DNA of 64,000 nt from Actinokineospora auranticolor (GTDB lineage Bacteria; Actinomycetota; Actinomycetes; Mycobacteriales; Pseudonocardiaceae), in contig NZ_PTIX01000013.1 in assembly GCF_002934265.1 (NCBI RefSeq), forward strand, positions 124,001-188,000, given 5' to 3'. The position numbers were made by a program, and so were the translations under genes. Shown in pieces: positions 23,864 through 49,773 of the stretch. Below the pieces are notes generated by a model, which was given only the letters and a program-made list of their open reading frames with translations, had not been told where the DNA came from and searched no databases. Every line of letters begins with the position of its first letter. Positions within the stretch are counted from its first letter, which is position 1.

Positions 23864-24483
23864 GACGCTTTCCTCCGGGGGGTGCGGTGCGACTGGCGGG
23901 GCGTGATGGTGGCGACGGGGGCCAGCGCGGTGGCGCCGTCGGGCACGTCGGCGACGATGAGCGCCTGGGCGCCGATGACCGCGCCGTGGCCGATGCGGAC
24001 CGGGCCGAGCACGGTGGCGTTGGCGCCGAGGATGACCCCGTCGCCGACCTCGGGGTGGCGGCGCTCGCCGTCGGGGCGGCGGTTGTCCCGCCACCAGCCG
24101 ACGGCGCCGAGGGTGACCTGGTGGTAGATGGTCACGTCGTCGCCGACCACGGCGGTCTCGCCGATGACGACGGCGGAGCCGTGGTCGATCAGCACCCGCC
24201 TGCCGACCCGGGCGCCCGGGTGGATCTCGACGCCGGTGACGGCGCGGACCAGCAGCATCAGGGTCCGGGCGGGCAGCCGCAGGCCGACGCCGTGCAGCCG
24301 GTGCGCGATCCGGTGCGCCCACAGCGCGGTCAGCGCCGGGTGCAGCAGGCCCTCGGCTCGGCTGCGGATCGACGGGTCGCGCCCGACCACGGTGTCCCAG
24401 TCCTCGGCGCACAGCCGCAGCAGGCCGGGCCCCGGCTCCCGCGCGATGCCCACTACCGGTGCGGCCCTGGTGACCCGGTCCAT
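23860..24483 (-). CDS. cysE: Serine O-acetyltransferase
   Basis: 207 residues. An N-terminal helical domain is followed by a left-handed beta-helix of hexapeptide repeats (VEIHPGARVGRRVLIDHGSAVVIGETAVVGDDVTIY...), with DHG and the HPEVGDGVILGANATVLG section typical of CysE. It makes O-acetyl-L-serine from serine and acetyl-CoA. The ATG has GGGAGG upstream and the gene opens the five-gene operon cysE-cysK-ligase-ligase-MFS. A cluster-dedicated cysE implies that O-acetylserine is a precursor of the product. A SARP-like heptamer repeat lies about 100 bp upstream. Confidence 0.92.
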   Translation of the reverse strand: MDRVTRAAPVVGIAREPGPGLLRLCAEDWDTVVGRDPSIRSRAEGLLHPALTALWAHRIAHRLHGVGLRLPARTLMLLVRAVTGVEIHPGARVGRRVLIDHGSAVVIGETAVVGDDVTIYHQVTLGAVGWWRDNRRPDGERRHPEVGDGVILGANATVLGPVRIGHGAVIGAQALIVADVPDGATALAPVATITPRQSHRTPRRKAS

Positions 24484-26038: not shown

Positions 26039-26127
26039 TGTACGACCGAGCCAAACGGCCCACGACACCGCGCCGCCCGCCACGCGCGACTGACACGGAC
26101 CTTGTGGACACACGGAGGGACGAGCAC

Positions 26128-30869: not shown

Positions 30870-31502
30870 ATGTCCGTGTCCCCCTGCGAGTTGCGCGTCA
30901 CCCCTTCCTGCACCGGATCCGCGCTGACCGGCCTGCGCGGCTGCGACCGGTGCCGCCAGGCCCTGCGCGACGAGCTGCGGGCACTGCCCGGGCTGCACGA
31001 GTCCTGCGCGCAGTCGCTGACACCGGGCAGGCGGCCGGAGGTCGTCCGGGTCAAGGGCGGCGGGATCCCGGGCGGGATCTCGCTCAACCCGACCGCGGTG
31101 TCGGTGCGCGCCAGCGTGCTCGGCGTGCTGTCGTCGTGGACGGCGCTGATCGTCGACGAGCTCGGCGTCGAGCGCCCGCCGTCGCGCCGGGTGCACGTGC
31201 TGTCCACCTTCCTGTACCGCAACCTGGACTGGCTGCTGGCCCACGAGGCGGCGGCGGACCTGGCCGAGGAGATCACCGACCTGGCCGACGCGGCCCGCGC
31301 GGTGCTCGACCCGAGCACCAGCGAGCGCGTCGACCTGGGTTCCTGCGGCACCCCGGGCTGCGGCATGACGGTCTACGCGACCATCGGCGCGGGCTCGGAC
31401 GCGGTGGCGCACGGCGCGTCCTGCGCGGCGGGCCACCACGTGGCGGCGAGCCAGTGGCTGCTGCTGGAGGAGCCCGACGAGGTCGCGGAGGGCGTGGCGT
31501 GA
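30870..31502 (+). CDS. OvmZ-like conserved protein
   Basis: 210 residues, ATG with GAGGAGA upstream. Two Cys-rich ends flank a helical middle: N-terminal CELRVTPSC...CDRCRQ and C-terminal CGTPGCGMTVYATIG ... CAAGHH, likely zinc sites. The middle has GGISLNPTAVSVRASVLGVLSSWTALIVDE and LDWLLAHEAAADLAEEI, the pattern of actinobacterial 'OvmZ' proteins often found in phage-like or accessory regions. The stop overlaps the next small HTH gene by GTGA, an arrangement typical for this family. Role unknown; probably not a biosynthetic enzyme. Confidence 0.7.
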   Translation: MSVSPCELRVTPSCTGSALTGLRGCDRCRQALRDELRALPGLHESCAQSLTPGRRPEVVRVKGGGIPGGISLNPTAVSVRASVLGVLSSWTALIVDELGVERPPSRRVHVLSTFLYRNLDWLLAHEAAADLAEEITDLADAARAVLDPSTSERVDLGSCGTPGCGMTVYATIGAGSDAVAHGASCAAGHHVAASQWLLLEEPDEVAEGVA

Positions 31503-31963: not shown

Positions 31964-33271
31964 ATGCCGGACCCCTCGTTACCCAGGGCCTTCATCCTCG
32001 CCGGGTCGCTGCTGGCTGTGTGCCGGGCGCCGCGCTACCTCGCCGAGCTGCGCGCCCGCGGCCTGCGGGCACTGCTGATCACCTCCGCCGACTGGCGGGC
32101 CGAGGCGGACCGGGCCACGGGGGACCCGGACCACCCGCTCGCCGACGTCGAGGACATCGCCTTCGTCGCGGGCGGCGTGCGCCGCGAGGGGTCGCTGCTG
32201 TCGGGTCCGGTCGCCGCGGCGATGACCTGGCGGGAGCGCTACGACATCGTCGGCGCGTACGCGGTCGGCGAGACCATGGTCGAGCCGACCGGGTTGATCG
32301 CCGACGCGCTCGGCGTCCCCGGACCGGGGCTGCGCGCGAGCCGCGCGTGCCGCAGCAAGTACCTGCAGCGCTGGTACCTCCCCGAATTCAGCCCACGGGT
32401 GGTGATCGGTGGGGAGGACGTCTCCGGAGTGCGATTCCCGGCCGTGGTGAAGCCGTCGGGAAGGCACTCCAGCTCCGGTGTCGTCACCGTGGACGACGAA
32501 CGCGCGTTGGCCGCCGAACTCGCCCGCTACGGGGAGTTCGAAACGGTCCTGGTCGAGGAGAAGATCATCGGACCGGAGTACTCGGTGGAGAGCCTGGTGC
32601 AACACGGGAAAGCGATCTTCGCCTCGGTGACGCGCAAGGACACCAACGATTCCGGTGGCCGCTTCTTCGTCGAACTCGCGCACACCGTGCCCAGCGACCA
32701 CCCGCACGTGCAGGAGCTGCTGCTCGACGCCAACCAGCGGGTGCTCGACGCGCTCGACGTGCGCGACGGCATCACGCACGCGGAGTGGCGGGTGACCGCC
32801 GAGGGGCGCCCGGTGCTGATGGAGATCGCGGCCCGCCCGCCGGGCGACGGGTTGTGCTCGCTCTACGAGCTGGCCACCGGCAAGCCGCTGGAACCGGAGG
32901 TGCTGCGGATCGCGCTGGGCGAGCACGCGGACTACCCGTCGCCGCGCCGGTACACGCGGCAGGTCTACCTCGAGCACCCCGCGGGCGTGCTCGAGGACGT
33001 CGTCGTCGACTGGCCCGGCGTCACCGCCGAGTGGGTCGGCGAGGCGGGCGTGTGGCACCAGCCCGCGCCGCTGCCCGGCGACGCCCCGGCGGCGCTGCGC
33101 GCGGTGCACGTGCACCAGGACCGCGGCGCGGTGCTGCGCCCCCTGACCAGTTCCGACGACCGCTCGGTGACCTTCTTCATCGACGCGCCGTCGGTCGACG
33201 AGCTCAACGCCGTCGAGGCCCGCGTCCGCGCGGCGATCACCATCCGCACCAAGTCCGCAGTGGAGGGCTGA
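31964..33271 (+). CDS. ATP-grasp carboxylate-amine ligase C
   Basis: 435 residues; ATG with GGAG upstream. N-terminal preATP-grasp part (FILAGSLLAVCRAPRYLAEL), ATP-binding section FPAVVKPSGRHSSSGVVTV, LVEEKIIGPEYSVESLVQHG and the metal-binding end HAEWRVTAEGRPVLMEIAARPPGDG. The C-terminal domain continues for about 120 residues. It opens a plus-strand operon with a second ATP-grasp gene, an MFS exporter and two aminotransferases, 3 bp from the next start. Likely forms an amide bond between amino-acid building blocks of this cluster, for example one derived from 4-aminophenylalanine; substrate unproven. Confidence 0.9.
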   Translation: MPDPSLPRAFILAGSLLAVCRAPRYLAELRARGLRALLITSADWRAEADRATGDPDHPLADVEDIAFVAGGVRREGSLLSGPVAAAMTWRERYDIVGAYAVGETMVEPTGLIADALGVPGPGLRASRACRSKYLQRWYLPEFSPRVVIGGEDVSGVRFPAVVKPSGRHSSSGVVTVDDERALAAELARYGEFETVLVEEKIIGPEYSVESLVQHGKAIFASVTRKDTNDSGGRFFVELAHTVPSDHPHVQELLLDANQRVLDALDVRDGITHAEWRVTAEGRPVLMEIAARPPGDGLCSLYELATGKPLEPEVLRIALGEHADYPSPRRYTRQVYLEHPAGVLEDVVVDWPGVTAEWVGEAGVWHQPAPLPGDAPAALRAVHVHQDRGAVLRPLTSSDDRSVTFFIDAPSVDELNAVEARVRAAITIRTKSAVEG

Positions 33272-33274
33272 GCT

Positions 33275-34534
33275 GTGACGAACCCCAGGGTGACCAACCT
33301 GCTGATGGTCATGCCCTACCAGGCGTACCTGGCCAAAGCGAAGGCCGAGGGCTTCCGGCTGGGCGCGGTCTGGGACAGCCGGGCCGCGTACCGGATCTTC
33401 GGTGGGCTGGCCGACCGGTACCTCGAGACGGTCGAGGCGCAGGTCGACGGCTTCTGGCTGACCGACTTCGACGACCCGGTGGCCTACGAGCGCGCCCTGC
33501 GCGAGGCGGCCGAGGAGTTCGGCGCAGACCTGCTCTACCACGTGGGGCAGGAGGAGAGCATGGGCCTGGCCACCCGGGTGGCCGAGGAGCTGGGCATCGG
33601 CGTCAACTCCGCCGAGGCCACGCACCTGCTCAACGACAAGCTGGCGCTGCGGCACCTGCTGGCCGAGCGCGGCCTCTCCCCCGTGCGCTACGCGGACGCG
33701 GCGGACTGGCGCGCGGCGGCGGACCTGCTCGACGGGTTCGACCTGCCGGTGGTGGCCAAGCCGACCCGGCTCTCCGGCAGCCGCGGCGTCGAGCTGATCG
33801 GGGACCGGGCCGCGTTCGCGGCCTGGGGCGCCGGGCTCGACGCGGTCGGCTACACCGGGCCGGTGCTGGTCGAGGAGTACCTGACCGGGCCGGAGTTCAG
33901 CGTCGAGACGATCAGCGTCGACGGCGCGCACCACGTCATCGGGGTGACCGCGAAGCGGCTGGGGCCGCCGCCGCTGTTCGTCGAGGCCGGGCACCGGCAC
34001 CCGGCGCCGCCGTCGGCCGACACCGACGCGATCGGCGCGCTGGTGGTGGCCATGCTGGCCGCCGCCGGGTACCGGTCCGGGCCCGCGCACACCGAGGTCA
34101 AGCTGACCCCGGCGGGCCCCCGGTTGATCGAGTCGCAGGCCCGGCTGGGCGGCGACCGCATCCCGCGCCTGGTCGAGCTGGCCACCGGGATCGACATCGA
34201 GCGGGCGGTCTTCGCCGCGCTCGCGGGCCGCGCGCCCGCCGCGCGCACCCGGGACCACGAGGCGCGGATCCACTACTTCGCGCTGCCGCTCGGGGTGGTG
34301 CGGTCGGTCGGCGACCTGTCGGCGATCCGGGCCCTGCCGTTCGTCGACGAGCTGTCCTTCCCGTTCTCCCCCGGCGACACCGTGCCGGAGACGGTGGATT
34401 GGCGGAGCAGGCACGGCTACGCGGTCGTGTCCGCCGAGACCGCCGAACTGGCCGCGCGCTACGTGTCCGAAGTGGACGCGAAGGTGCTGGCCGCGGTCGA
34501 GATCGACGTCGGCGGGGTGGGGGTGGCGGCGTGA
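33275..34534 (+). CDS. ATP-grasp carboxylate-amine ligase D
   Basis: 419 residues, GTG start 3 bp after ligase C. Motifs: HVGQEESMGLATRVAEELGI, LNDKLALRHLLAERGL, ATP site LPVVAKPTRLSGSRGVELI, LVEEYLTGPEFSVETISVDG, and metal ligands HTEVKLTPAGPRLIESQARLGGDRIP. The TGPEFSVE and ARLGG patterns place it closest to ligase B (21630) by eye. Paired ligases C and D mirror the pair A and B on the other side of the SARP gene, each followed by an overlapping MFS gene. Two successive peptide-bond-forming steps, or two related products, could be made. Confidence 0.9.
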   Translation: MTNPRVTNLLMVMPYQAYLAKAKAEGFRLGAVWDSRAAYRIFGGLADRYLETVEAQVDGFWLTDFDDPVAYERALREAAEEFGADLLYHVGQEESMGLATRVAEELGIGVNSAEATHLLNDKLALRHLLAERGLSPVRYADAADWRAAADLLDGFDLPVVAKPTRLSGSRGVELIGDRAAFAAWGAGLDAVGYTGPVLVEEYLTGPEFSVETISVDGAHHVIGVTAKRLGPPPLFVEAGHRHPAPPSADTDAIGALVVAMLAAAGYRSGPAHTEVKLTPAGPRLIESQARLGGDRIPRLVELATGIDIERAVFAALAGRAPAARTRDHEARIHYFALPLGVVRSVGDLSAIRALPFVDELSFPFSPGDTVPETVDWRSRHGYAVVSAETAELAARYVSEVDAKVLAAVEIDVGGVGVAA

Positions 34535-35805
34535 ACCTCAAGGACCTGCACCCGAGTCTGCGGATCCGGGTCGGCGTCGGGTTCGTCAACCGGCTGGTCG
34601 ACTCGATGATCACCTCGTTCATGGCCATCCACCTGGCGCTGACCTTCGGCGTCGCCGCCGCGGGCGGGCTGCTGATCGCGGTCATCGCGCTCGGCGTGGT
34701 CGGCATGCTCGTCGGCGGGCACGTGGCCGACCTGCACGGGCGGCGGCGCACGCTGCTGGTCGCCGAAGCCGCCGCCGCCGTGACGTTCGCGCTGATGGCG
34801 GTGGCAGAGGGTGCTGGGGATGGCGCCGTGGACAGCTCCCTACTCGTCTACCTGGGGTACCTGGCGAACAAGTTCGCGGCCAGCGTGGCGCTGCCCGCCA
34901 ACGACGCGATGATCGTCGACCTGAGCACGCCGGAGATCCGCAAGGGCGTGTACACGGTCAACTTCTGGGCCACGAACCTGGCGCTGGCCATCGGCGCGCT
35001 GCTCGGCGCGGCGCTGTACAGCGCGCACTTCGCCCTGGTGCTCGGGCTCGCCGCGGCGGCCACGGCCGGGGTGCTGGCGACGACGTACTTCCTGATCGCC
35101 GAGACGAAACCGGACACCGACACCGACCGGGTCCGCCCGCCCGGGGTCGCCGCGGCGTTGCGCGAGTTCGGCGCGGGCTACCGGTTGGTGTTGCGGGACA
35201 AGGTGTTCCTCAAGCTGATGATCGCCGGAACGCTCACCCTCGCGGTGGAGTTCCAACTGGTCAACCACATCGCGGTGCGCCTGGCGGCGGGTTTCCCCAG
35301 CCAGGCGCTGCTGCCGGTCGGCTGGTCCCCGGTGGTCGACGGGGTGGGCATGCTCGGGGTGCTGCGCGCCGAGAACACCATCCTCGTGGTCGTGCTGGCG
35401 CTGTTCTCCACGACGCTGTTGCGGCGGGTGTCCGACCGCACCGGCCTGTACCTGGGCACGGCGCTGTTCGTCGGCGGCTACGCGGTGCTCGCGGTCAGCG
35501 GCACCGGGTGGCTGCTCATGGTGGCGGGCCTGGTGTTCACCATCGGCGAGCTGATGAGCGTGCCGGTGAAGCAGGCGCTGCTGGCCAACCTGGTGCCCGA
35601 CCACAGCCGCACCCGCTATATGGCCGTCTACAACCTCAACATCCGCGTCGCCCAGGGCCTGGCGGCGGCCTGCGTCACCCTCGGCGCGGTCGTCCCCGCC
35701 TGGGGCATGGCCGCGCTCTACCTGGCTCTCGGCGCGGTGATCATCGCGCAGTACCGGTCCGTCCTGGCGGCCCAGTCCGCCCCCGCACCGCTCGCGCGGG
35801 CCTGA
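34531..35805 (+). CDS. MFS transporter
   Basis: 424 residues, GTG start overlapping ligase D by GTGA. Twelve helices; motif A appears as GGHVADLHGRRRTLLVAEAA. The N-terminus (NLKDLHPSLRIRVGVGFVNRLVDSMITSFMAIHLA) and the long central loop resemble peptide/antibiotic exporters of the BacE-like type adjacent to ATP-grasp ligases. It probably exports the ligase product and gives self-protection. Confidence 0.88.
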   Translation: MNLKDLHPSLRIRVGVGFVNRLVDSMITSFMAIHLALTFGVAAAGGLLIAVIALGVVGMLVGGHVADLHGRRRTLLVAEAAAAVTFALMAVAEGAGDGAVDSSLLVYLGYLANKFAASVALPANDAMIVDLSTPEIRKGVYTVNFWATNLALAIGALLGAALYSAHFALVLGLAAAATAGVLATTYFLIAETKPDTDTDRVRPPGVAAALREFGAGYRLVLRDKVFLKLMIAGTLTLAVEFQLVNHIAVRLAAGFPSQALLPVGWSPVVDGVGMLGVLRAENTILVVVLALFSTTLLRRVSDRTGLYLGTALFVGGYAVLAVSGTGWLLMVAGLVFTIGELMSVPVKQALLANLVPDHSRTRYMAVYNLNIRVAQGLAAACVTLGAVVPAWGMAALYLALGAVIIAQYRSVLAAQSAPAPLARA

Positions 35806-35820: not shown

Positions 35821-36891
35821 ATGACCGTCCACCCCAGACTCCGACCGGTCGTGGAGTCGATGCCGACCTACCGACCCGGCCCCAAGGTCGCCGCGCCGTC
35901 CGGCGAGATGTTCCTCCTGGGCGCCAACGAGTCGCCGGATGGGCCGCTGCCCCCGGTCGCCGCGGCCATCGCCGCCGCGGCGGCCGGGGCGAACCGCTAC
36001 CCCGACTACGCCTCGACCGAACTGGTCAACACCCTGGCGGACACGCTCGGCGTGCCCGCCGCGCAGGTGGCCGTCGGCTGCGGTTCCGTCGGTGTGGTGG
36101 GCAACCTGCTCTCCGCAGCGGCCGAGCCGGGCGGGCAGGTGGTGTACGCGTGGCGGTCGTTCGAGGCGTACCCGACGCTGACGCGGCTCGCGGGCATGTC
36201 CCCGGTTCCCGTGCCGCTGCGGGACGACCGGCACGACCTCACCGCGATGGCCGCCGCCGTGACCGACCAGACCCGCGCGGTGCTGGTGTGCAACCCCAAC
36301 AACCCCACGGGCACCGTGGTCCACCGGCGCGAGTTGGAGTCCTTCCTGGACGACCTGCCGCCGGAGGTGCTGGTGCTGCTCGACGAGGCGTATGTCGAGT
36401 ACGTGCGCGACCGCGAGTCCCCCGACGGGCTCGACCTGCTGGCCGGGCGCCCGTCGCTGGCCGTGGTGCGCACCTTCTCCAAGGCGTACGGCCTGGCCGG
36501 GTTGCGGGTGGGCTACGCGGTGGCGGACGAGCGGGTGGCGCGCGCCGCCCGCACCACCGGGCTCTCCTTCGCGGTCAACCGGATCGCGCAGGCCGCCGCC
36601 GTGGCGTCCCTGCGCGCGGGCGACGAGCTCACCGCGCGGGTGGAGACCACCGTCAAGGAGGTGGGCCGGGTCCGGTCCGCCCTGCTGGACCTCGGCCTGC
36701 CGGTCCCGGCCTCCGAGGGCAACTTCGTCTGGCTCGGGCTGGGCGCGGACACCGCCGCGTTCACCTCGGCCTGCGCGGCGGCCGGTGTGGCCGTGCGCGC
36801 GTTCCCCGGCGAGGGTGTCCGGGTGTCCATAGGGGACACCCGGGCCAACAACGCCTTCCTGGCCGCGGCGTGGGAGTACACGCACAGCTGA
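35821..36891 (+). CDS. HisC-like aminotransferase (aromatic type)
   Basis: 356 residues, fold-type I PLP enzyme of the histidinol-phosphate/aromatic aminotransferase family. Substrate region LLGANESPDGPLPPV, NPNNPTGTVV, LLDEAYVEY, PLP-Lys in TFSKAYGLAGLRVGYA and the phosphate Arg region NFVWLGLG are present. In a cluster with PapA/B/C, such an enzyme is suited to convert 4-aminophenylpyruvate to 4-amino-L-phenylalanine. Start ATG has GAGAAGGGAAC upstream and lies 15 bp after the MFS gene. Confidence 0.88.
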   Translation: MTVHPRLRPVVESMPTYRPGPKVAAPSGEMFLLGANESPDGPLPPVAAAIAAAAAGANRYPDYASTELVNTLADTLGVPAAQVAVGCGSVGVVGNLLSAAAEPGGQVVYAWRSFEAYPTLTRLAGMSPVPVPLRDDRHDLTAMAAAVTDQTRAVLVCNPNNPTGTVVHRRELESFLDDLPPEVLVLLDEAYVEYVRDRESPDGLDLLAGRPSLAVVRTFSKAYGLAGLRVGYAVADERVARAARTTGLSFAVNRIAQAAAVASLRAGDELTARVETTVKEVGRVRSALLDLGLPVPASEGNFVWLGLGADTAAFTSACAAAGVAVRAFPGEGVRVSIGDTRANNAFLAAAWEYTHS

Positions 36892-36909
36892 TAAACCAAG
36901 GAGAACCCC

Positions 36910-38151
36910 ATGGCCCCCACGGACCAACCCGCGTTAGACCCCCGGTTCGCGCGCCGCAGCGCGGGCCTGCTGGCCTCGGAGATCCGCGCGCTGTTCGCGG
37001 TCGCGTCGCGCCCGGGGGTGGTGTCGCTCGCCGGTGGCATGCCCGCCGCGGACGCGCTGCCCACCCAGGTGCTCGCCCGGATCCTGGGCGAGGTGGCGAC
37101 CGACCCCACCGCCCTGCAGTACGCCTCCGGGCAGGGCGATCCCGCGCTGCGCGAACAGATCTGCGCGGTGATGGCCGCCGAGGACGTGCGCGCCGACCCG
37201 CGCGACGTCGTGGTGACCACCGGCGCGCAGCAGGCGCTGGACCTGGTGACCGGGGTGCTCGCCGACCCCGGTGACGTGGTGCTGGTGGAGTCACCGGCCT
37301 ACGTCGGCGCGCTGGCGACCTTCGCCGCGCACGGGGTTCGCGTGCGGCACGTGCCCGACGACGGCGCGGGGCTCTCGGGCCCGGCCGTCGCCGAGGCGGC
37401 GGAGCGGGCGCGGCGGGCGGGGCACCGGGTGGCTTTCCTCTACACCGTGCCCAACTTCGCCAACCCGTCCGGCGTCACGCTGAGCGCGGACCGCCGCGCG
37501 CAGGTGCTGACGGCGAGCGCGCGGGCCGGGGTCCAGGTGGTGGAGGACAACCCGTACGGGTTGCTGCGCCTGGAAGGCGAGCCGTTGCGCGCGCTCCGGG
37601 CGATGGCGCCGGACGTGGTGTACCTGGGGTCGTTCTCGAAGATCCTGGCGCCGGGGCTGCGCGTCGGCTGGGCGCTGGCCCCGGCCGCGGTGACGGCGAA
37701 GCTGGTGCTGGCGGCCGAGGCGGCCGTGCTGTGCCACTCCAGCCTCGCCCAGGCGGCCGTGGCCAGGTACCTGTCCACCGAGCCCTGGGGCGACCACGTC
37801 AAGGGCCTGCGGGAGCTGTACTGGGAGCGGCGGGCCGCCATGCTGTCCGCGCTGACCGCGCACATGCCGCCCGGGACCCGTTGGCGGGTACCGGAAGGCG
37901 GGTTCTTCCTGTGGCTGGGGCTGCCCGCGGGGGTGCGGGCCAAAGCGTTGCTGCCGCGCGCCGTCGAGGCAGGCGTGGCGTACGTGCCGGGTACCGGTTT
38001 CTTCGCCGACGGCAGTGGCGACGACCACCTCCGCGTGTCCTATTCCTTTCCCGAGCCCGCGGTGATAGAAATCGGGGTCCGCCGGTTGGCCGAAGTCGTG
38101 AAGTCGGCCGCCGACGAATACGAAACCGGATTTGACGGCAGTAGGGGTTGA
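36910..38151 (+). CDS. Class I/II aminotransferase (LysN/2-aminoadipate-like)
   Basis: 413 residues, ATG with AAGGAGA upstream. Motifs: VVSLAGGMPAADALP, LQYASGQGDPALREQI, YTVPNFANPSGVTL, EDNPYGLLRL, PLP-Lys in SFSKILAPGLRVGW. This subfamily handles 2-aminoadipate, aromatic or unusual amino acids and is common in peptide natural-product clusters. With the HisC-like enzyme it gives two transaminases in one operon, so one may act on 4-aminophenylpyruvate and the other on a second building block. The stop codon overlaps the TTGAC of the conserved upstream element for the next gene. Confidence 0.88.
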   Translation: MAPTDQPALDPRFARRSAGLLASEIRALFAVASRPGVVSLAGGMPAADALPTQVLARILGEVATDPTALQYASGQGDPALREQICAVMAAEDVRADPRDVVVTTGAQQALDLVTGVLADPGDVVLVESPAYVGALATFAAHGVRVRHVPDDGAGLSGPAVAEAAERARRAGHRVAFLYTVPNFANPSGVTLSADRRAQVLTASARAGVQVVEDNPYGLLRLEGEPLRALRAMAPDVVYLGSFSKILAPGLRVGWALAPAAVTAKLVLAAEAAVLCHSSLAQAAVARYLSTEPWGDHVKGLRELYWERRAAMLSALTAHMPPGTRWRVPEGGFFLWLGLPAGVRAKALLPRAVEAGVAYVPGTGFFADGSGDDHLRVSYSFPEPAVIEIGVRRLAEVVKSAADEYETGFDGSRG

Positions 38152-38186
38152 CGGCCCACCTCCGGGCGTGTCACGCTTTTCCCGAG
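38146..38186 (+). promoter_or_regulatory. Conserved upstream element, copy 2
   Basis: GGTTGAC ... CCGGG ... TGTCACGCTTTTC, matching the element at 31786-31826. It begins inside the stop codon region of the aminotransferase and precedes the DsbA-like gene (38317) by about 150 bp. Confidence 0.55.
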
Positions 38187-38316
38187 CCACTTCCGTGTGC
38201 CCGGACGCCGATCAGGCGAACTTCCGCGGGACACACGGCCATCACGGCGCGAATCCTTTCCGCAAAGCACTATGGTCAGCCGCACACCGAACGGCTGCGA
38301 CCAAGGAGACCTCCCC

Positions 38317-42426
<4,110 letters not shown>

Positions 42427-42481
42427 GCCATTCCCCTGCCGACCGCAGGGTCTCCCCCATCCCCAACGGAAAGGACACCCC

Positions 42482-44158
42482 ATGACCACTTTCGCCCCGA
42501 CCGTTCTCACCGCCGAGCAGCGCGCCGCCGTGGCCGCCGACGCCACCATCGGTGGCGGCAACCTGCTCCCCTCCGCCATCGCCGCGAGCCCGGCCCCGGA
42601 CCAGCCGTTCCTGCGAACACTCCGGCCGGTCATCAACACCGCGGGCGAGCCCCAGGAGGAGTTCAGCCTGCTGGAGCTCGACGAGCTCGTGCAGAGCTGG
42701 TCGGTGTGGTACCTCGGGCAGGGCGTCGGCCCGCGCGACCGGGTCGCGATCTGGATCGAGGACTCCTTCGCCTACTCGGTGCACCTGTACGCCCTCGCGC
42801 AGATCGGCGCCATCGCGGTGCTGATCAACACGAAGGCGTCGCGGGAGATCGCCGAGTCGCTGATCAAGCAGACCACCCCGATGGGCATCTACGCGAACCG
42901 GCCCAGGATGGACGTCCTGGCCGACCTCACCGCGAACCTGCCCGGTCTGGCGTGGACGGTGCTCGTCGAGGACGTGCCCGCGCCGCCGAAGGCGGAACTG
43001 CCCGCCGACCAGCGGTTCCGGCACAACGACGAGGACCCGATCACGATCCTGCACTCCTCGGGCACCACCGGGCTGCCGAAGCCGACCATCCACACCCACG
43101 GCTCGCTCGTGGCGGGGCCGAAGTTCCGGCTGGTCGACCACAAGGAACTGCCCGGCGCGATGACCATGACCAGCCTCCCGCAGTCGCACCTGGGCTGCAT
43201 CGCCTACTCCGTGTACGCGGTGCTGGCGGGGGCGCGCACCACGGCCGGGTTCGACCGGCCCGGTGCGGAACTGGTCGAGGCGGTGGCCACCCACAAGCCG
43301 ACCGCGGTCATGTCCTTCGCGCACGCGTACTCCGAGATCCCGTCGCTCGACATGGAGCCGGGCGCGATCGACTCGGTGAACGTGTGGGTGTCCATCGGGG
43401 ACGCCGTGCACGAGGCGCACATCAAGGACATCCTGCGCAAGCGCGGCGCGGACAAGCCGCAGGCGGCGTTCTTCGACCGCCTCGGCACGACCGAGCTGGG
43501 CTGGGGTGTGCTGCTCAAGATCCGCACGGTGGACACCGAGCGCAACGACCGCTGCGCGGGCAAGCCGGTCGGTGTCGCCGAGGTGACGATCCTGCGCGCG
43601 GACGGCACCTACGCCGACGACAACGAGGTCGGCCTGCTGGCCGCCCGGGGCCCGGCGATCACCCCCGGGTACTGGGACAACCACGACCTCAACTACCGCA
43701 GCCGCCTGTCGGGCTACTGGCTGACCGGCGACAACGGCTACCGCGACGGCAACGGCGACCACTTCCTGGTCGACCGCACGGTGGACGCGCTGGTCACCCC
43801 CGAGCGCACCGGCTACTCGGTGTTCATGGAGGAGGTCCTGCTCGCCGACGTGCCCGACGTGGTCGACACCGCGGTGGTGGCGGGCAGGCGCGACGGCGTG
43901 GTCGTGCCGGTGGCCGTGGTGGTGCCCGCGCCGGGCACCGACCCCGACCCGGTGAAGCTGCTGACGCTGGCCAACGAGGAACTGGCCCGCGCCGGTCACC
44001 TCACGCTGGGCGCGCTGGACCTGGCCCGCACCGACGAGGACTTCCCCGTCGGCGTCACCGGCAAGGTCCTCAAGCGCAACCTGCGGGACAAGTACGCCGA
44101 CCTGGCCGCCTACGGTGCGACCGCCGACCCGAAGTCCTTCGCCGCGCTCGAATCCTGA
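42482..44158 (+). CDS. Acyl-adenylating (ANL superfamily) enzyme
   Basis: 558 residues, ATG with GGAAAGGACACCCC upstream. AMP-binding motifs: ILHSSGTTGLPKPTIHTHGS (P-loop), a divergent middle without the usual YGxTE but with FDRLGTTELGW, GYWLTGDNGYRDGNG and the C-terminal catalytic Lys in GVTGKVLKRNLRDKY. Closest in style to benzoate/aryl-CoA ligases. It carries no fused carrier domain, so it should form an acyl-CoA or adenylate for a separate acceptor. An aromatic acid derived from the PAPA route is a reasonable substrate guess; the pocket cannot be read reliably by eye. Confidence 0.85.
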   Translation: MTTFAPTVLTAEQRAAVAADATIGGGNLLPSAIAASPAPDQPFLRTLRPVINTAGEPQEEFSLLELDELVQSWSVWYLGQGVGPRDRVAIWIEDSFAYSVHLYALAQIGAIAVLINTKASREIAESLIKQTTPMGIYANRPRMDVLADLTANLPGLAWTVLVEDVPAPPKAELPADQRFRHNDEDPITILHSSGTTGLPKPTIHTHGSLVAGPKFRLVDHKELPGAMTMTSLPQSHLGCIAYSVYAVLAGARTTAGFDRPGAELVEAVATHKPTAVMSFAHAYSEIPSLDMEPGAIDSVNVWVSIGDAVHEAHIKDILRKRGADKPQAAFFDRLGTTELGWGVLLKIRTVDTERNDRCAGKPVGVAEVTILRADGTYADDNEVGLLAARGPAITPGYWDNHDLNYRSRLSGYWLTGDNGYRDGNGDHFLVDRTVDALVTPERTGYSVFMEEVLLADVPDVVDTAVVAGRRDGVVVPVAVVVPAPGTDPDPVKLLTLANEELARAGHLTLGALDLARTDEDFPVGVTGKVLKRNLRDKYADLAAYGATADPKSFAALES

Positions 44159-44171
44159 GCACGGCACGACC

Positions 44172-44262
44172 ACAACCGAAAACACACAACAGAACCCCAC
44201 AAGAGAACCACCACAACCGAATCCCGACAACAGAATCAGGCCAGGTGAACCCGACAACCGAA
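44172..44262 (+). repeat. A/C-rich leader with five ACAACNGAA repeats, 41-bp period
   Basis: ACAACCGAA occurs at 44172, 44213 and 44254, and ACAACAGAA at 44186 and 44227. The steps are 14, 27, 14, 27, i.e. a 41-bp unit with two motifs repeated about 2.2 times. The region is in the 271-bp gap before the DAHP synthase, followed by a hairpin at 44347. A related copy precedes papB (38985). Confidence 0.6.
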
Positions 44263-44346
44263 CAACGCACCCCGCGACGCGGACGCGCCGCGGGATCGCA
44301 CGACCCCTGACCGCGCGAGGCTCCCGGCCGCGCGCGGAGGTCCACA

Positions 44347-44385
44347 CCGGACGGTGGCCCGCCTGACGCGCGGGCCACCGTCCGG
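44347..44385 (+). terminator. 16-bp hairpin before DAHP synthase
   Basis: CCGGACGGTGGCCCGC pairs perfectly with GCGGGCCACCGTCCGG across a 7-nt loop, ending 44 bp before the DAHP synthase ATG. It may terminate the upstream operon, or act as an attenuator for the next gene. No T tract. Confidence 0.55.
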
Positions 44386-44429
44386 ACCCACACCCGCGCC
44401 GCCGCGCGCACTCCCACGGAGGTCCCGTC

Positions 44430-45488
44430 ATGTCCGGTCTGTCCCTGTACAGCTTCGCCGTCGACACCCCCGCCACCGCCACCCAGCAGTGGTTGGACCA
44501 CTTCGACACCACCGGCACCACCGCCACGCTCCAGCACCTCGGTTCGACGCCCGTGATCGTCGCCCACGGTCCCGGCACGGAGACACCGGCCCCCGACAAC
44601 CTCGTCGCGCCCGTCGCCGTCGTCGCCGCGGGCGGGGACTTCCGGCTCGGCAGGCGCGAGCTGCGCCCCGAGGGCACCGTGGTGCGCGTCGGCGGCGCGA
44701 CCGTCGGCGACGGCTCGCTCAACGTGTTCGCCGGTCCGTGCGCGGTGGAGAACCGCCAGCAGCTGCTGGACTGCGCCGACGTCGCCGAGCACTACGGCGC
44801 GGTCGGCCTGCGCGGCGGCGCCTTCAAGCCGCGCACCTCGCCGTACTCCTTCCAGGGCCTCAAGTGGGCCGGACTGGAGCTGCTGGCCGAGGCGCGCGCG
44901 CACACCGGCCTGCCGATCCTCACCGAGGTGCTCGACCCCCGGCACGTGGAGCGGGTCGCGGCCACCGCCGACGGGCTGCAGATCGGCGCCCGGAACATGC
45001 AGAACTTCGAGCTGCTCAGCGAGGCGGGCAAGTCCGGTCGCCCGGTCGTGCTCAAGCGCGGCTTCGGCTGCACCGTCGACGAGACCTTGGCCGCCGCCGA
45101 GTACATCCTGGCGCAGGGCAACGACCAGGTCATCCTGTGCGAGCGCGGCATCCGCACCTTCGAGCACGCCACCCGCTTCACCCTCGACATCTCCGCGGTC
45201 GCGCTGATGAAGCAGCGCTCGCACCTGCCGGTGATGGTCGACCCCAGCCACTCCGTCGGCATCCCCGCCCTGGTCGAGCCGGTCTCCCTGGCCGCGGCGG
45301 CGGCGGGCGCGGACGCGTTGCTCATCGACGTGCACGTGGCGCCCGAGCAGGCGCTGTGCGACGGCAAGCAGGCGCTGCTGCCCGACGACTTCGGCGTGCT
45401 GATGGGCAAGCTGGAGCTGCTGTCGATGGGCCTGAGCCGCAAGCTGGCCGGTGTCGTCGGCGCCCACGCCGTCCTCGCCGAGCGCTGA
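44430..45488 (+). CDS. 3-deoxy-7-phosphoheptulonate (DAHP) synthase
   Basis: 352 residues, ATG with GGAGG upstream. The N-terminal ~90 residues form a ferredoxin-like extension, then a KDO8P/DAHP-synthase TIM barrel with VFAGPCAVE, RGGAFKPRTSPYSFQG, DGLQIGARNMQNF, LKRGFG, LCERGIRTF and DPSHSVG. It belongs to the type I-beta (AroF/AroA of Bacillus type) family. It performs the first committed shikimate-pathway step from PEP and erythrose-4-phosphate. A cluster-dedicated copy would raise chorismate flux for 4-aminophenylalanine. Confidence 0.93.
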   Translation: MSGLSLYSFAVDTPATATQQWLDHFDTTGTTATLQHLGSTPVIVAHGPGTETPAPDNLVAPVAVVAAGGDFRLGRRELRPEGTVVRVGGATVGDGSLNVFAGPCAVENRQQLLDCADVAEHYGAVGLRGGAFKPRTSPYSFQGLKWAGLELLAEARAHTGLPILTEVLDPRHVERVAATADGLQIGARNMQNFELLSEAGKSGRPVVLKRGFGCTVDETLAAAEYILAQGNDQVILCERGIRTFEHATRFTLDISAVALMKQRSHLPVMVDPSHSVGIPALVEPVSLAAAAAGADALLIDVHVAPEQALCDGKQALLPDDFGVLMGKLELLSMGLSRKLAGVVGAHAVLAER

Positions 45489-45562
45489 CCACCCCCGCCA
45501 ACCCGCCGTCGCCCCGCACCCCGCGCGCCCGGGGTAGGCGGGCGCACCACCTGGAGGACACC

Positions 45563-47527
45563 GTGACCCACATCTGCATCATCGGCGCGGGACCGCGCGG
45601 GCTGTCGGTGCTGGAACGACTGCACGCGAGCGCGGCGGGCCAGTCGCGCGAGATCACCGTCCACGTCGTGGACCCCAACCTGCACAACGGGAGCGCGGTG
45701 TGGCGCACCGACCAGTCCCGCGAGCTGCTGATGAACACCGTCGCCGCGCAGATCACCATGTTCGCCGACGAGACCGTCAGCTGCGCGGGCCCGATCGTGC
45801 CCGGCCCCAGCCTGCACGAGTGGGCCCGCTTCGTCGAGCACCTCGGCCCGGAGGACCGGCTGCCCGACTGGGCCCGCGCGGAGTGCCGCGAGCTGGGCCC
45901 CGACTCGTACCCCACCCGCGCGCTCTACGGCCACTACCTGCGCTGGGTTTTACGGCACCTGCTGCGCACCACCCCGGACAACCTGACGATCGCGTTGCAC
46001 GCCAACACCGCCACCAGCCTCGTCGACGCCGACGACGGCAGCCAGGTGGTGGAGCTGGACGACGGCACCGTGCTCGACGGGCTGGACTCGGTCGTGCTCA
46101 CCCAGGGGCACGTGCCCAGCATGCTGTCGGAGGCGGAGACCGCGCTGGCCGAGTACGCGGCCCGGCACCACCTGGCGTACGTGCCGCCGGGCAACCCCGC
46201 GGGCGTCGACCTGTCGTTCCTCAAGCCCGGGCAGGAGGTGGCGCTGCGCGGGATGGGCCTGAACTTCTTCGACTACATGGCCCTGCTCACCACCGGCCGC
46301 GGCGGCCGCTTCTCCCGCGGCGACACGGGATCGCTGACCTACCACCCCTCCGGCGCGGAGCCGGTGCTGATCGCGGGCTCCCGCCGCGGCGTCCCCTACA
46401 CCGCCCGCGGCGAGAACCAGAAGGGCGCCTTCGGCAGGCACGAGCCGCTCTTCCTGACCCCGTGGGTGATCCGCACCCTGCGCAGGCGCGCGGAACGCGG
46501 CCGCCCGGCCGACTTCCGCACCGAGGTCTGGCCGCTGATCGACCGCGAGGTCCGGTCGGTGTACTACACCGCGCTGGTCACCGAACGGTCCTGCGTCTGC
46601 GAGGCCGAGGTCTTCTCCCGCCGCTACCGGGCGGTCTGCGAGGAGGAGTTCGCCGCCACCCCGGTCGGCGAGCCCTTCGACCAGCCCCGCTCGGAAGCCG
46701 AGTCGGTCCTCCTGGACCGCTTCGGCATCGCCGAGGCCGACCGCTGGGACTGGAACGCGATCGCCAAGCCGTACGGCGACCGCGAGTTCGCCGACGCGGA
46801 CGACTACCGCAAGTGGCTCACCGGCTACCTCCGCGAGGACATCCGGGAGGCGTTGCGCGGCAACGTCCGCAGCCCCCTCAAGTCCGCCCTCGACGCCATG
46901 CGGGACCTCCGCAACGAAATCCGCCTGGTGGTGGACCACGGCGGCCTCAGCGGCGATTCCTACCGAGACGACCTCCAACGCTGGTACACCCCCTTCAACG
47001 CGTTCGTCTCGATCGGCCCGCCGGTCAGCCGCATCGAGGAGATGACCGCCCTGATCGAGGCAGGCGTCCTGCGCGTGGTCGGCCCCGGCATGGTCGTCGA
47101 ACCGGCGGAGGACGACTCGGAGTTCCTGGTCTCCTCGACGAAGGTCCCGGGCCCCCCGGTCCGCGTGACGGCGCTGATCGAGGCCAGGCTCCCCGAGCCC
47201 GACATCCGCACCACCACCGACCCGCTGCTGGGAGGCCTGCTGGCACGAGGTGAATGCGTCCTCCACCAGATCCCCATCGCGGGCGGCGGCCACTACGAAA
47301 CCGGCGGCCTGGCCGTATCCCCCCGCCCCTACAACGTCCTGGGCAAGGGCAGAGTCCCCCACCCCCGCCGCTTCGCCTACGGCGTACCGACGGAAACCGT
47401 CCACTGGGTCACCGCGGCGGGCATCCGCCCGGGCGTGAACTCCGTGATCCTCGCCGACGCCGACGCGGTCGCCCAGGCGACCCTGGCCATCTCGGTCCCC
47501 CGCACGGAACTCATCGCGGGCTTCTAG
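45563..47527 (+). CDS. FAD/NAD(P)-binding oxidoreductase (PF13454-type)
   Basis: 654 residues from GTG 45563 (GGAGG upstream). The FAD Rossmann motif IIGAGPRGLSVLERL is at the very N-terminus, with VVDPNLHNGSAVWRTDQSRELLMNTVAAQITMF typical of the FAD-NAD(P)-binding 'NAD_binding_9' family. A second nucleotide-binding stretch (VALRGMGLNFFDYMALLTTGRGGRF) and a long helical insertion follow, and the C-terminus has IPIAGGGHYETGGLAVSPRPYNVLG. Such proteins occur in several actinomycete clusters and may be N-oxygenases or oxidases. Oxidation of an amino group is one possibility here. It is the last gene before the cluster terminator. Confidence 0.8.
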   Translation: MTHICIIGAGPRGLSVLERLHASAAGQSREITVHVVDPNLHNGSAVWRTDQSRELLMNTVAAQITMFADETVSCAGPIVPGPSLHEWARFVEHLGPEDRLPDWARAECRELGPDSYPTRALYGHYLRWVLRHLLRTTPDNLTIALHANTATSLVDADDGSQVVELDDGTVLDGLDSVVLTQGHVPSMLSEAETALAEYAARHHLAYVPPGNPAGVDLSFLKPGQEVALRGMGLNFFDYMALLTTGRGGRFSRGDTGSLTYHPSGAEPVLIAGSRRGVPYTARGENQKGAFGRHEPLFLTPWVIRTLRRRAERGRPADFRTEVWPLIDREVRSVYYTALVTERSCVCEAEVFSRRYRAVCEEEFAATPVGEPFDQPRSEAESVLLDRFGIAEADRWDWNAIAKPYGDREFADADDYRKWLTGYLREDIREALRGNVRSPLKSALDAMRDLRNEIRLVVDHGGLSGDSYRDDLQRWYTPFNAFVSIGPPVSRIEEMTALIEAGVLRVVGPGMVVEPAEDDSEFLVSSTKVPGPPVRVTALIEARLPEPDIRTTTDPLLGGLLARGECVLHQIPIAGGGHYETGGLAVSPRPYNVLGKGRVPHPRRFAYGVPTETVHWVTAAGIRPGVNSVILADADAVAQATLAISVPRTELIAGF

Positions 47528-47534
47528 TCCCCAC

Positions 47535-47570
47535 GGGGCGGCGGCCGTATCCCCCGGCGGCCGCCGCCCC
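47535..47570 (+). terminator. Terminator at the end of the biosynthetic region
   Basis: GGGGCGGCGGCCG pairs with CGGCCGCCGCCCC over 13 bp across a 10-nt loop, 7 bp after the FAD gene stop. Confidence 0.8.
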
Positions 47571-48363
47571 AACCCTCCCCATTTCCCTTCCATACCTCAC
47601 TCACCCCAACACCTTCCCCGCCCATCCTCGCCATACCCCATCCACCCCAGCACATTCCCCCATCACCAGTTTTCCCTCCCTCCCTCTCACCTCACTTCCC
47701 CACTTCTCTCCTCACCTCGCACTCCCTGCCATTTCGCCTCGCTCTGCTTCCTCACCTCACCCTCCCACTTCACCTGGCCCTCCCTGCCTCGCCCCTCGCG
47801 CCTTCCCCTTCTCCGCAACACACCCAGACTCACCTCCCCCAACGCACCCCGCTCTACCCTGCCTCCCCGCTCTCCCTCCTCACTTCGCCTCTCCCCCAAG
47901 CACTTCCCTCCCTGCCCCGCCACTCCCACCCCACCTCTCCACCGCTTCGCGGCGCCCCCGCTCCGCCTTCCCGACATCGCCGCCATGGCCCACCCGCTTT
48001 GCTCCCCCAGAACACACCTGCTCCGCCTCGTCCCTGGCAGCCCTCCGACACTCGCCCTCCTCTCCTGGCCGCCTCCCAACACTCCCCTTCCCTTCCGCTT
48101 CCCAGCGCACGCCCCCTCCGCCTTTGGCACCTCGCTCCCCCCGAATACTTCCTCCCCCCAGCGCACCCCACTCTGTCCACTTAGTCCAACCGGCCTACCC
48201 GTCTCCCAACACAATCACCAAGATCTGCCACACGCCGTCGACATCCCCTCCCGCGAATGCCTCCTCCTGGCCACCCCGCTGCCGCCCGCCCCACTCATCC
48301 CCCTGCCTGCTCCACCACCGTCCTCCGCACCGCGCTTCCTCCGCCCACCTCGTCCGGTCCCCC
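47571..48363. other. Non-coding tract, extreme C-over-G asymmetry
   Basis: About 790 bp in which the plus strand is dominated by C and T with few G; for example, in the 60-base line from 47581 only two bases are G. Open frames exist on both strands, but their products are Pro/Ser/Leu- or Gly/Arg-rich low-complexity sequences with no ribosome site, so no gene is called. The minus strand is G-rich, with runs such as GGG-N4-GGGG-N-GGG-NN-GGGG near 47567-47587 that could form a G-quadruplex. It begins after the cluster terminator and ends at a 17-bp hairpin. Confidence 0.7.
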
Positions 48364-48404
48364 AAGCGGGGCGCCACCTGTCTCCAGCAGGTGGCGCCCC
48401 GCTT
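48364..48404. terminator. 17-bp perfect hairpin closing the pyrimidine tract
   Basis: AAGCGGGGCGCCACCTG pairs perfectly with CAGGTGGCGCCCCGCTT around a 7-nt loop, followed by TTCG. The A/T ends on both sides allow termination in either direction. No gene ends near it, so it may end an unannotated transcript from the tract to its left or from the right on the minus strand. Confidence 0.65.
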
Positions 48405-48829
48405 TTCGTCGTTCACACGCCTTGCCCCGGACAGCGACCGACCTGCCATCTCCCCGTCAAGTCCGTGGGTGTGTGTCGCACACCCACCCGCACAGGCACA
48501 CACCCCAACATCCGACGAAAGCCGACAAATCGTCCACCGATCGAGCCGCTCGACCCCGGCTCCAGACGACTTCCCCCGTTTCGCCTATTCACTATTCGAC
48601 ACCCCGAGCACCAAATACAAACTTGGCGGATCCCTTTTCGCGACAGAGAACGCAAATTCCTCCCGCTACCCGATTGGCGGAGTCCAGCCCTCCGGGGCAC
48701 CACTAGGCTTCTGCGAAGTAGGAGAAAAACCTACAGGACCGGAGAGCGGCGACCTTTCCATTCAGCCACAGGCAGGCGTCGCCGTATTCGCATCGATAAC
48801 TGGGGAAAGAAACACGAAGATTTCAGCGA
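48405..48829. other. Intergenic region, no gene recognised
   Basis: 425 bp between the hairpin and the amidase remnant. Composition returns to less skewed and is AT-richer from about 48560. Short inverted repeats such as GTGGGTGTGTG/CACACCCAC (48466-48486) are present. It probably contains the promoter for the amidase-like gene; no clear -10/-35 was assigned. Confidence 0.4.
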
Positions 48830-49773
48830 GTGTTGGCGGCATGCCTCGGTGCGTCCGCGGTGGCAGTCGCCTCGGACGCGCTGCGCGGTCGCTTAGCGGT
48901 CCAAGCGCGGAAGTTGGACGAAGTCCGGGCATTCACGCTGACCACGACGTCGCGCGGGTACACCAAGTCCGACGTCGAGGTCACCATCGACGCCGTGGAG
49001 ACCGAACGGTCGGCCACGCGGGTGCGCGCGACCGAGCTGACCAAGCTGTACTTCGGGCACGGCGACCCGAACGCGCCCGCGTACGAGGCGTACAAGGTGC
49101 GCCACCTGCTCTCCTTCGCGCAGGTCAACGACATCTGGACGCTCACCTCGGCCGAGGTCGCCCTGGGGGCCGGGCCGCCGCCCGCCCTGTACGCGGAGGT
49201 CCCGGCCAAGCGCCCGGGCTCGACCAAGCCGGATACCTCCGGCCCAATCGCGAACTCCGCGGGCATCACGATGACCTACGACTACCTGCCATGTACAACT
49301 ACGCCGAACAGTATTGGGACAACTACAACGACGACTACCGCGCTCAGGGCAACGACTGCACCAATTTCATCTCGCAGATCATGAAGGTGGGCGGCCGGGA
49401 AGATGACCTGGGCATCTGGAACTCGGATGAGAACTGGTGGTACAACTGGATCAACCAGACCCACAGCTGGGCGGGCGCACACAACTGGGCGGTTTTCGCG
49501 CGCATCAACTCCCAGCGCGTCTCACACATCCCGAACGTGTACGAAATGCTCGTCACCGACGTCCTGCAGGTCGAGTGGGACCACCCGGACGAGGGCGACG
49601 AGCCGAACAACATCGACCACACGATGATCCTGACCGGTAGGCTGGGGCCCGCGGGAGCCGCTGAGGAGATCTACCTGACCTACCACGCCTCCGACCGCTG
49701 GAACGTCGCCTTCTGGGGATGGCTGCTGCCGCAGGGCAAGGATCGCGACGCGTGGTACGCCCACCGCACCTGA
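48830..49773 (+). pseudogene. Frameshifted secreted amidase-domain protein
   Basis: The first part (from GTG 48830) reads a hydrophobic signal-like start (VLAACLGASAVAVAS) and a globular region with ELTKLYFGHG and TYDYLP, up to about 49290. The rest of the family sequence continues in the next frame: MYNYAEQYWDNYNDDYRAQGNDCTNFISQ with the catalytic Cys, later NNIDHTMILTG with the His, ending KDRDAWYAHRT. This is the putative amidase domain (PF12671-like) of secreted actinobacterial proteins. A one-base loss near 49292 would explain the break. Either a recent pseudogene or a sequencing error. True start uncertain; the frame continues upstream to a stop at about 48792. Confidence 0.75.

Follow-up and report, generated by a model that had tools for sequence, protein, structure and literature searches.

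The locus described here raises the question of what becomes of the 4-aminophenylalanine (PAPA) that it is predicted to supply. It lies in a stretch of 64,000 nucleotides (hereafter the window) of the 8.4 Mb genome of Actinokineospora auranticolor (contig NZ_PTIX01000013.1, in our numbering G000:C13:124001-188000; C4, C5, C9 and C13 denote contigs of this genome), in which genes for PAPA synthesis are followed by genes encoding an AMP-binding enzyme of the ANL superfamily and a large FAD protein. Based on the sequence analysis, the cluster probably makes PAPA, diazotises its ring amine with nitrite provided by a CreE-type enzyme and a CreD lyase encoded in trans, and ligates the product into a small peptide by means of ATP-grasp enzymes. 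A preliminary description of the locus had recognised the PAPA supply line within an ATP-grasp cluster, which is retained here, while the roles it gave to the ANL enzyme and the FAD protein had to be revised.

The formation of PAPA from chorismate via PabAB, PapB, PapC and an aminotransferase is an established route. According to profile matches, the window encodes a PabAB fusion with the PIKGT motif, PapB, PapC, two aminotransferases and a 3-deoxy-D-arabino-heptulosonate 7-phosphate (DAHP) synthase, all on the plus strand and where the preliminary description had placed them, and with the mutase, the dehydrogenase and an aminotransferase beside PabAB the gene set for PAPA appears complete in terms of predicted activities. 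The HisC/Pat-type aminotransferase is the likely enzyme for the conversion of 4-aminophenylpyruvate to PAPA. Since the genome holds another PIKGT-type pabAB fusion (C9) and two further DAHP synthase family genes, the cluster copies are regarded as extra copies. A supply line dedicated to a cluster with ATP-grasp genes (two at 31964-34534 and two at 20365-22910), as previously claimed, is thus supported. The alternative that the pap genes serve only the synthesis of folate and 4-aminobenzoate is not borne out: papB and papC are both present, a second pabAB is located on C9, and the scanned reading frames of the 35.8-47.5 kb region gave no match to the class IV aminotransferase fold (4-amino-4-deoxychorismate lyase type).

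The ANL enzyme encoded directly downstream of papC had been described as an acyl-adenylating enzyme. Based on its best model and structural matches, the protein is closest to ATP-dependent, nitrite-using diazotases in its predicted function. The PDB matches were 9xb8 (761 bits), CmaA6 (8ztz) and Tri17 (9bq0), CmaA6 and Tri17 also being the top matches in a structural comparison, and the nearest relatives of the enzyme are diazotases and not acyl-CoA ligases, its identity to CmaA6 being about 30%. Residues E338 and K528 were invariant in alignments of 12 and 18 rows and aligned with the corresponding Glu and Lys of CmaA6 and Tri17. E338 corresponds to E352 of CreM, the Glu that binds Mg in the A5 motif (the comparison was made via CmaA6 and Tri17, not via the CreM sequence), and the C-terminal Lys of ANL enzymes is catalytic. 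The protein of PDB entries 9xb8/9xbs, deposited as “Fatty-acid-CoA ligase FadD”, matches the diazotase encoded in the pap cluster of Microbispora corallina (L069) with 100% identity over 551 residues and shares 64% identity with the enzyme of the window.

A scan of a genome collection for relatives of the diazotase gave at least 317 confirmed candidates; the best 80 loci, a selection and not the total in existence, were kept, and at all 80 the neighbouring genes were called by bit-score thresholds (L-numbers denote loci and G-numbers genomes; 390 genomes of the same family were scanned as well). With a diazotase identity of at least 49% there were 32 loci, in 19 of which papB, pabAB and papC were found together, while two (L085, L086) had papB and pabAB at the locus edge and 11 lacked the trio. 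The 48 loci with a diazotase identity of at most 45% had neither papB nor papC, and pabAB alone occurred in five. All 19 full trios thus belonged to the close relatives.

The same linkage was apparent in a diazotase tree of 54 rows, which was restricted to loci of at least 28% identity whose translations were free of stops. All 22 pap-linked rows, the window included, fell into one group of 33 rows with a support of 100/100, and the pap label required four changes, against a value of 17.2 for shuffled labels, none of 500 shuffles giving so low a number, although near copies inflate this shuffle test and the tree carries a long-branch warning with OWN_C5 among the branches concerned. Furthermore, the gene order from the non-ribosomal peptide synthetase (NRPS) gene to creE is the same in G230, G237 and G240 (two contigs), with identities of 58-90%. 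Because the same genes recur in the same order in three other genomes, the combination of pap and diazotase genes is not attributed to chance, and the cluster, spanning about 15.0-47.5 kb of the window (32 kb), is judged from these comparisons to be conserved as a unit.

The FAD protein shares 340 of 591 aligned residues (58%) with PDB 8cp2, an L-aspartate N-hydroxylase of the CreE type, although no NCBIfam model matched it. All nine residues checked in the active site and entry chamber are kept (R13, N62, R266, R276, R409, R412, N413, R416 and R577 in 8cp2 numbering), while neither of two peripheral arginines is (R593 to Q, R597 to A). In the structures 8cp2/8cp5, aspartate is contacted by R13, R276, R416, R577 and N413, R266, R409 and R412 are located at an arginine-rich sulfate site beside the flavin, and N62 moves (PMC10404684). 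The protein should therefore make nitrosuccinate, a precursor of nitrous acid, from L-aspartate. Given the identity to 8cp2 and the residues kept, it should oxidise aspartate rather than the peptide, for which the preliminary description had considered nitrogen oxidation. A lyase gene directly follows the CreE gene in G230, G237, G240, G163, G154 and G271; the lyase of Amycolatopsis xylanica matched the nitrosuccinate lyase model NF052556 (4.2e-169, 563 bits, under the cut-off of 650).

In the pathway that we propose, the DAHP synthase would boost the shikimate supply, PabAB, PapB and PapC would convert chorismate to 4-aminophenylpyruvate, and the aminotransferase would yield PAPA. The CreE-type enzyme would form nitrosuccinate from L-aspartate, from which a CreD lyase, clustered in the relatives and in trans here, would free nitrous acid. 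The ANL enzyme would then activate nitrite with ATP and turn the ring amine of PAPA, either free or within a peptide, into an aryl diazonium; the ATP-grasp ligases would couple the PAPA-derived residue to one or more amino acids, and the proteins of the major facilitator superfamily (MFS) would export the product. Candidate fates of the diazonium are azo coupling to the pyridinedione that the NRPS would make, a reduction catalysed by the Rv2466c-like enzyme, conversion to an azide and release as a reactive warhead. Gene identities, synteny, linkage and conserved residues are read directly from the sequences, whereas the substrate of the diazotase, the order of the steps and the fate of the diazonium are what we infer in this scheme.

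Several observations weigh against this pathway. The diazotase reached 316 bits with the AvaA6 model and hence failed its curated cut-off of 975; it is thus not an AvaA6 orthologue, and its substrate is not fixed by the model. Published diazotases, SpiA7 excepted, mostly act on hydroxyl-stabilised anilines (PMC11705231), and PAPA, having no hydroxyl, is unlike their usual substrates. Since the trio was missing within the fetched locus in 11 of the 32 close relatives, the substrate in these may be a different aryl amine. Eight loci (L075-L078, L080, L081, L083 and L084) encode the diazotase, a DAHP synthase, CreE and CreD, with no papB or papC in the fetched stretch. Split pabB/pabA-like genes were detected about 4 kb beyond the exporter in L075 (as L148), L080 (as L150) and Amycolatopsis G149 (L149), and as a pair inside L078. 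Another aminated chorismate product may be diazotised in these relatives, and this weakens the tie of the enzyme family to PAPA. With regard to nitrite, tblastn with the G230 lyase across the whole window revealed no creD and no remnant of it (best E 0.22). No nitrosuccinate lyase was evident in L061 (373 bits), L082 (321), L085 (58) and L086 (261), compared with 494-570 bits for typical clustered or own copies, and these scores leave the nitrite source of L082, L085 and L086 unaccounted for.

Two further groups of loci were noted during this comparison. The diazotase clusters of L078, L080, L081, L083 and L084 lie next to LarB-, LarC- and LarE-like genes (nickel-pincer cofactor), as judged by eye from the sequence. 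Nine loci (L088-L094, L096 and L098, from eight Streptomyces and one Saccharothrix) combine a diazotase of 43-45% identity with a conserved protein resembling an NRPS and six more conserved families, have no pap genes, and represent a different orphan diazotase cluster.

Among the other explanations, it is quite unlikely that diazotisation takes place on a different amine of the cluster (a beta-substituted alanine after ligation, or a hydrazine) and leaves PAPA intact. Genes for CysE-like, CysK-like and ornithine cyclodeaminase (OCD)-like proteins are present in the same cluster, and Tri17 relatives nitrosate other nitrogen centres (PMC11705231). However, the common partner of the diazotase is the pap gene set, and neither the CysK-like family nor the NRPS was called in the examined stretches of the pap-diazotase loci of Mycolicibacterium, Microbispora and A. 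xylanica. The whole NRPS/CysE/CysK/ATP-grasp block was not seen in these stretches, which retain the pap-diazotase core and usually the ATP-grasp ligase of the 31964 type; judging from this distribution, the block is an add-on to the core. The CysK-like gene accompanied the NRPS in all nine loci in which its family was called. L-2,3-diaminopropionate synthesis by the CysK/OCD pair was also considered and not kept, the CysK-like protein fitting cysKM (2.9e-104) better than SbnA (9e-67) and the OCD-like protein matching SbnB weakly.

It is improbable that, as the preliminary description pictured, PAPA serves as an ordinary building block without modification, with the ANL enzyme acting only to adenylate or ligate an acid and the FAD protein N-oxidising the peptide. 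The ANL enzyme does belong to the AMP-binding superfamily, and general acyl-CoA ligase models score too, but the diazotase model is best by about 50 orders of magnitude and the nearest solved structures with known function are the diazotase CmaA6 and the N-nitrosating Tri17. The FAD protein, moreover, still has the residues that bind aspartate, and in the relatives a nitrosuccinate lyase goes with it.

The lack of CreD in the window could also mean that nitrite is no longer made, that nitrosuccinate from CreE ends as 3-nitropropionate, which arises by spontaneous decarboxylation (PMC10404684), and that the diazotase is idle or decaying. At 46000-52000 the window has a strong C skew (GC skew -0.22 to -0.15), with a C-rich stretch poor in coding sequence immediately downstream of creE and a short amidase_6 gene (49291-49773) behind it; the stretch resembles a recombination edge at which creD disappeared. 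Nevertheless, this explanation seems very improbable, as both the diazotase and CreE are intact, with 82-86% identity to their counterparts in another genus, and a full-length CreD-like gene (C5:100498-101799, 570 bits, under the cut-off of 650) is present beside a second CreE-like gene. The complete aspartate-nitrosuccinate (ANS) pathway, with CreD beside CreE, is accordingly not found in the window cluster, the CreD-like gene being available only in trans. A separate creE/creD operon has been recorded in an azamerone producer (PMC11705231), and 72 of 134 ava-like clusters in one survey were without creE/creD genes (PMC10777205). The CreE/CreD pair on C5 probably belongs to another cluster for N-N bond formation (C5:80886-101799; L142, L143), a diazotase relative of 32-34% identity being encoded about 15 kb away.

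The synthesis of phenylalanine by the cell is established metabolism. The least credible explanation is that diazotisation serves to remove the amine as in avenalumic acid, with no N-N bond surviving, since PAPA without its amine would be the phenylalanine that the cell already makes, even though such removal is the known logic of the ava and cma clusters (PMC10777205).

Returning to PAPA diazotisation, nitrite appears to be supplied in more than one way among the relatives. In the 21 loci with pap genes, CreD was found inside the locus in nine (interrupted in one, L100) and within about 20 kb in five more (L063, L064, L065, L069 and L070, the contig of L070 being paired by number only). L067 (795 bits) and L095 (591 bits) have CreD elsewhere in the genome; for L079 the lyase check covered its 13 kb only. 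In Streptomyces bauhiniae, near L100, the clustered CreD match (G410:C12:305510-306882) is interrupted and another full-length copy lies on the same contig. Haloechinothrix halophila (L061) showed no CreE or CreD in the 40 kb around the diazotase, and its genome is missing from the list of those that gave a CreE match (264 of the 390 family genomes matched). Its cluster carries NasC (5.1e-228) along with an electron-transfer protein similar to NirB (4.0e-112) and a transporter of the NarU/NarK family (6.2e-101), each scoring below its curated cut-off, and a second NasC is encoded elsewhere in the genome. Three Microbispora clusters carry the nitrate reductase set together with CreD, and the two extended ones (L151, L152) also CreE and an Rv2466c-like gene. 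A replacement of CreE/CreD by nitrate reductase was rejected for Microbispora because CreD is present in its clusters as well; H. halophila is the one case in which it holds. As predicted from these gene sets, the nitrite supply can be exchanged between related clusters, comprising CreE/CreD, a nitrate reductase with transporter, or both. Nitrate reduction has been proposed as nitrite source for alanosine (PMC11705231); no description of a nitrate reductase inside a diazotase cluster was found among the titles and abstracts of top-ranked literature matches.

The fate of the diazonium may be connected with the NRPS. The preliminary description had noted its preference for glutamine and taken ATP-grasp ligases for the assembly enzymes. 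The code (DAWQFGLINK, read by eye) is one we take to be glutamine-like, and the NRPS is part of the same conserved cluster. Due to the SagB-type insert in its adenylation (A) domain (TIGR03605, 4.5e-9, 36 bits, under the cut-off of 78) and this code, it is assigned to the indigoidine synthetase type, with the oxidase (Ox) insert followed by a peptidyl carrier protein (PCP) and a thioesterase (TE); its product is predicted only. Matches to the insert occur in 56 of the 390 family genomes. The copies at the same place in G230, G237, G240 and G245 are 74-75% identical to that of the window, which groups with them at 72-74% in the insert comparison, other family copies being mostly at 49-61% (G245 has the NRPS half of the cluster up to a contig edge, with no diazotase match at 1e-30). 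The NRPS also lies close to papB in five Streptomyces/Kitasatospora loci, and with its constant place in the four genomes this led us to reject the possibility that it is bystander DNA. With 52% in H. halophila and 53-57% in Streptomyces, the pap-cluster copies of these organisms do not exceed the identity of ordinary copies in the family (up to 61%), which speaks against a special role of the NRPS and suggests that it may have joined the cluster more than once.

For the NRPS-bearing subfamily (the window, G230, G237, G240, H. halophila and the five Streptomyces/Kitasatospora loci) it is conceivable, yet on balance rather unlikely, that 4-diazoniophenylalanine is a true intermediate that becomes azo-coupled to the glutamine-derived aminopyridinedione of the indigoidine-type NRPS, giving a pyridone azo/hydrazone amino acid in a peptide built by ATP-grasp ligases. 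In related outcomes, the Rv2466c-like mycothiol enzyme may reduce the diazonium to 4-hydrazinophenylalanine, or an aryl azide may be formed. The gene for the Rv2466c-like protein, absent from the preliminary description, is located between the aminotransferase genes and papB and is a second copy, with a paralogue on C4; its family was called in 23 of the compared loci, among which a few genomes are counted twice (G163/L060, G206/L061, G271/L075 and G223/L095).

The remaining features of the cluster are compiled in the table, in which the end of papB and both ends of pabAB and papC were set from coding-frame statistics. The ATP-grasp ligase most widely kept with the pap genes is that at 31964-33271, found in 15 of the 19 full-pap loci. 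In L063, L067, L068, L070 and L100 the ATP-grasp reading frames are unusually long (up to about 910 residues) and possibly represent fusions of two enzymes. A protein of the WelO5-like non-haem iron oxygenase/halogenase family (PF22814, 3.3e-7) is encoded beside the NRPS (13709-14617), and a very large acetyl-CoA-carboxylase-like protein of 1823 aa at 57752-63223 unites biotin carboxylase, carrier and carboxyltransferase in one frame.

Table. Predicted features of the PAPA/diazotase cluster and its downstream edge, with positions in the window.
Feature	Position	Strand	Matches and remarks
Indigoidine-synthetase-type NRPS, A - SagB-type oxidase insert - PCP - TE	15018..18881	-	AMP-binding 1.2e-87, PCP, thioesterase
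MFS transporter	19055..20368	-	PF07690 7e-45; kept in G206, G230, G237, G240, G245
ATP-grasp ligase	20365..21633	-	weak ATP-grasp / LAL_C2 matches; conserved order
ATP-grasp ligase	21630..22910	-	ATP-grasp_4 3.6e-22, LAL_C2 4.2e-16; start from coding-frame statistics
Cysteine-synthase-like pyridoxal phosphate (PLP) enzyme, possibly beta-substituted alanine synthase	22907..23863	-	PF00291 2.7e-76; cysKM 2.9e-104; SbnA weaker, 9e-67
Serine O-acetyltransferase-like	23860..24483	-	cysE 3.3e-50
MFS transporter	24692..25906	-	PF07690 1.3e-25
BTAD / NB-ARC / TPR pathway-type regulator	26104..29277	+	BTAD 2.5e-41; conserved in relatives
OCD / SbnB-like, weak	29893..30786	+	PF02423 1.2e-9; SbnB 9.6e-8, far below cut-off
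Small Cys-containing protein	30870..31502	+	no Pfam match at 1e-4; homologues in G206, G230, G237, G240
ATP-grasp ligase, L-amino-acid-ligase related	31964..33271	+	ATP-grasp_4 1.5e-15; PDB 3vot 1.6e-12
ATP-grasp ligase with LAL_C2	33275..34534	+	LAL_C2 6.2e-12, ATP-grasp_4 2.1e-11; PDB 3vot 7.3e-17
MFS transporter, likely exporter	34531..35805	+	PF07690 8.8e-30; frame and start from coding-frame statistics
HisC/Pat-type aminotransferase	35821..36891	+	PF00155 9e-52; NF002878 464 bits, passes cut-off 374
Second PLP aminotransferase, MocR/MppQ-like	36910..38151	+	PF00155 4.9e-35; TIGR04461 1.4e-66, under cut-off
Rv2466c-like DsbA-fold mycothiol-dependent reductase	38272..38940	+	PF22234 1.3e-86; PDB 5xur 3e-76
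papB, 4-amino-4-deoxychorismate mutase type	39030..39380	+	CM_2 5.2e-15; start uncertain, 39030 or 39072
pabAB fusion, 4-amino-4-deoxychorismate synthase	39461..41527	+	GATase 6.6e-49, chorismate_bind 2.1e-83; TIGR00553 351 bits, passes cut-off 328
papC, 4-amino-4-deoxyprephenate dehydrogenase type	41524..42426	+	PDH_N and PDH_C 1.4e-5; NF006409 5.6e-24, prephenate dehydrogenase models under cut-offs
ATP-dependent diazotase-type ANL enzyme	42482..44158	+	AMP-binding 1.1e-36; NF058622 (AvaA6) 3.1e-94; next model 1.7e-42
DAHP synthase	44430..45488	+	PF00793 3.2e-71; NF006421 395 bits, passes cut-off 335
CreE-type L-aspartate N-hydroxylase (nitrosuccinate synthase)	45563..47527	+	PF13454 1.2e-40; 58% identity to PDB 8cp2
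C-rich stretch at creD position of sister clusters	47528..49290	.	no creD remnant

Aryl diazonium compounds are prized by chemists for coupling and labelling. If the proposed pathway is true, a widespread family of actinobacterial clusters would place an aryl diazonium on the side chain of an amino acid, with a defined enzyme, substrate and cofactor to test. The relatives, equipped with CreE/CreD, with a dedicated nitrate reductase plus transporter or with the two sets together, would furthermore offer natural comparisons on the origin of nitrite for diazo groups. While the PAPA genes, the diazotase class and the nitrite pathway are each known, their combination appears to be new in the literature searched: no diazotase or nitrosuccinate joined with aminophenylalanine was found in the titles and abstracts listed, subscription papers and supplements being outside reach.

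The chloramphenicol and pristinamycin clusters use the papA/B/C route. We know of no diazotase in these two clusters or in that of dnacin B1. They have the PAPA route in common with the window and differ in assembling their products on NRPSs, the PAPA of dnacin being turned into a quinone. For dnacin B1 the route is given in the dnacin paper, where the word “diazo” occurs 0 times. The window NRPS has the A-Ox-PCP-TE layout and glutamine-like code that we take to be those of the indigoidine synthetases IndC/BpsA, but it groups with the copies of the sister clusters.

Compared with the ANS pathway and PDB 8cp2, the CreE-type enzyme shares the residues described above and CreD follows CreE in the sister clusters, whereas the window cluster is without CreD and some relatives add or substitute a nitrate reductase. 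Alazopeptin (azp) and alanosine resemble the proposed product in that an amino acid carries an N-N bond formed from nitrite; for alanosine, a role of nitrate/nitrite reductases as its source is debated. They differ in that AzpL is an unrelated membrane protein and in that the amine is aliphatic, not aryl. The closest known systems also include those of the diazotases CmaA6, AvaA6, CreM, Aha11 and SpiA7, with which the enzyme of the window shares the ANL fold, the A5 Glu and C-terminal Lys (CmaA6, Tri17) and, in its relatives, the partnership with CreE/CreD. The 9xb8/9xbs protein, deposited under a generic name, is likewise among the closest entries. What distinguishes the window from the systems of the five named diazotases is its partner pathway, which is predicted to give PAPA instead of 3-amino-4-hydroxybenzoate or related acids.

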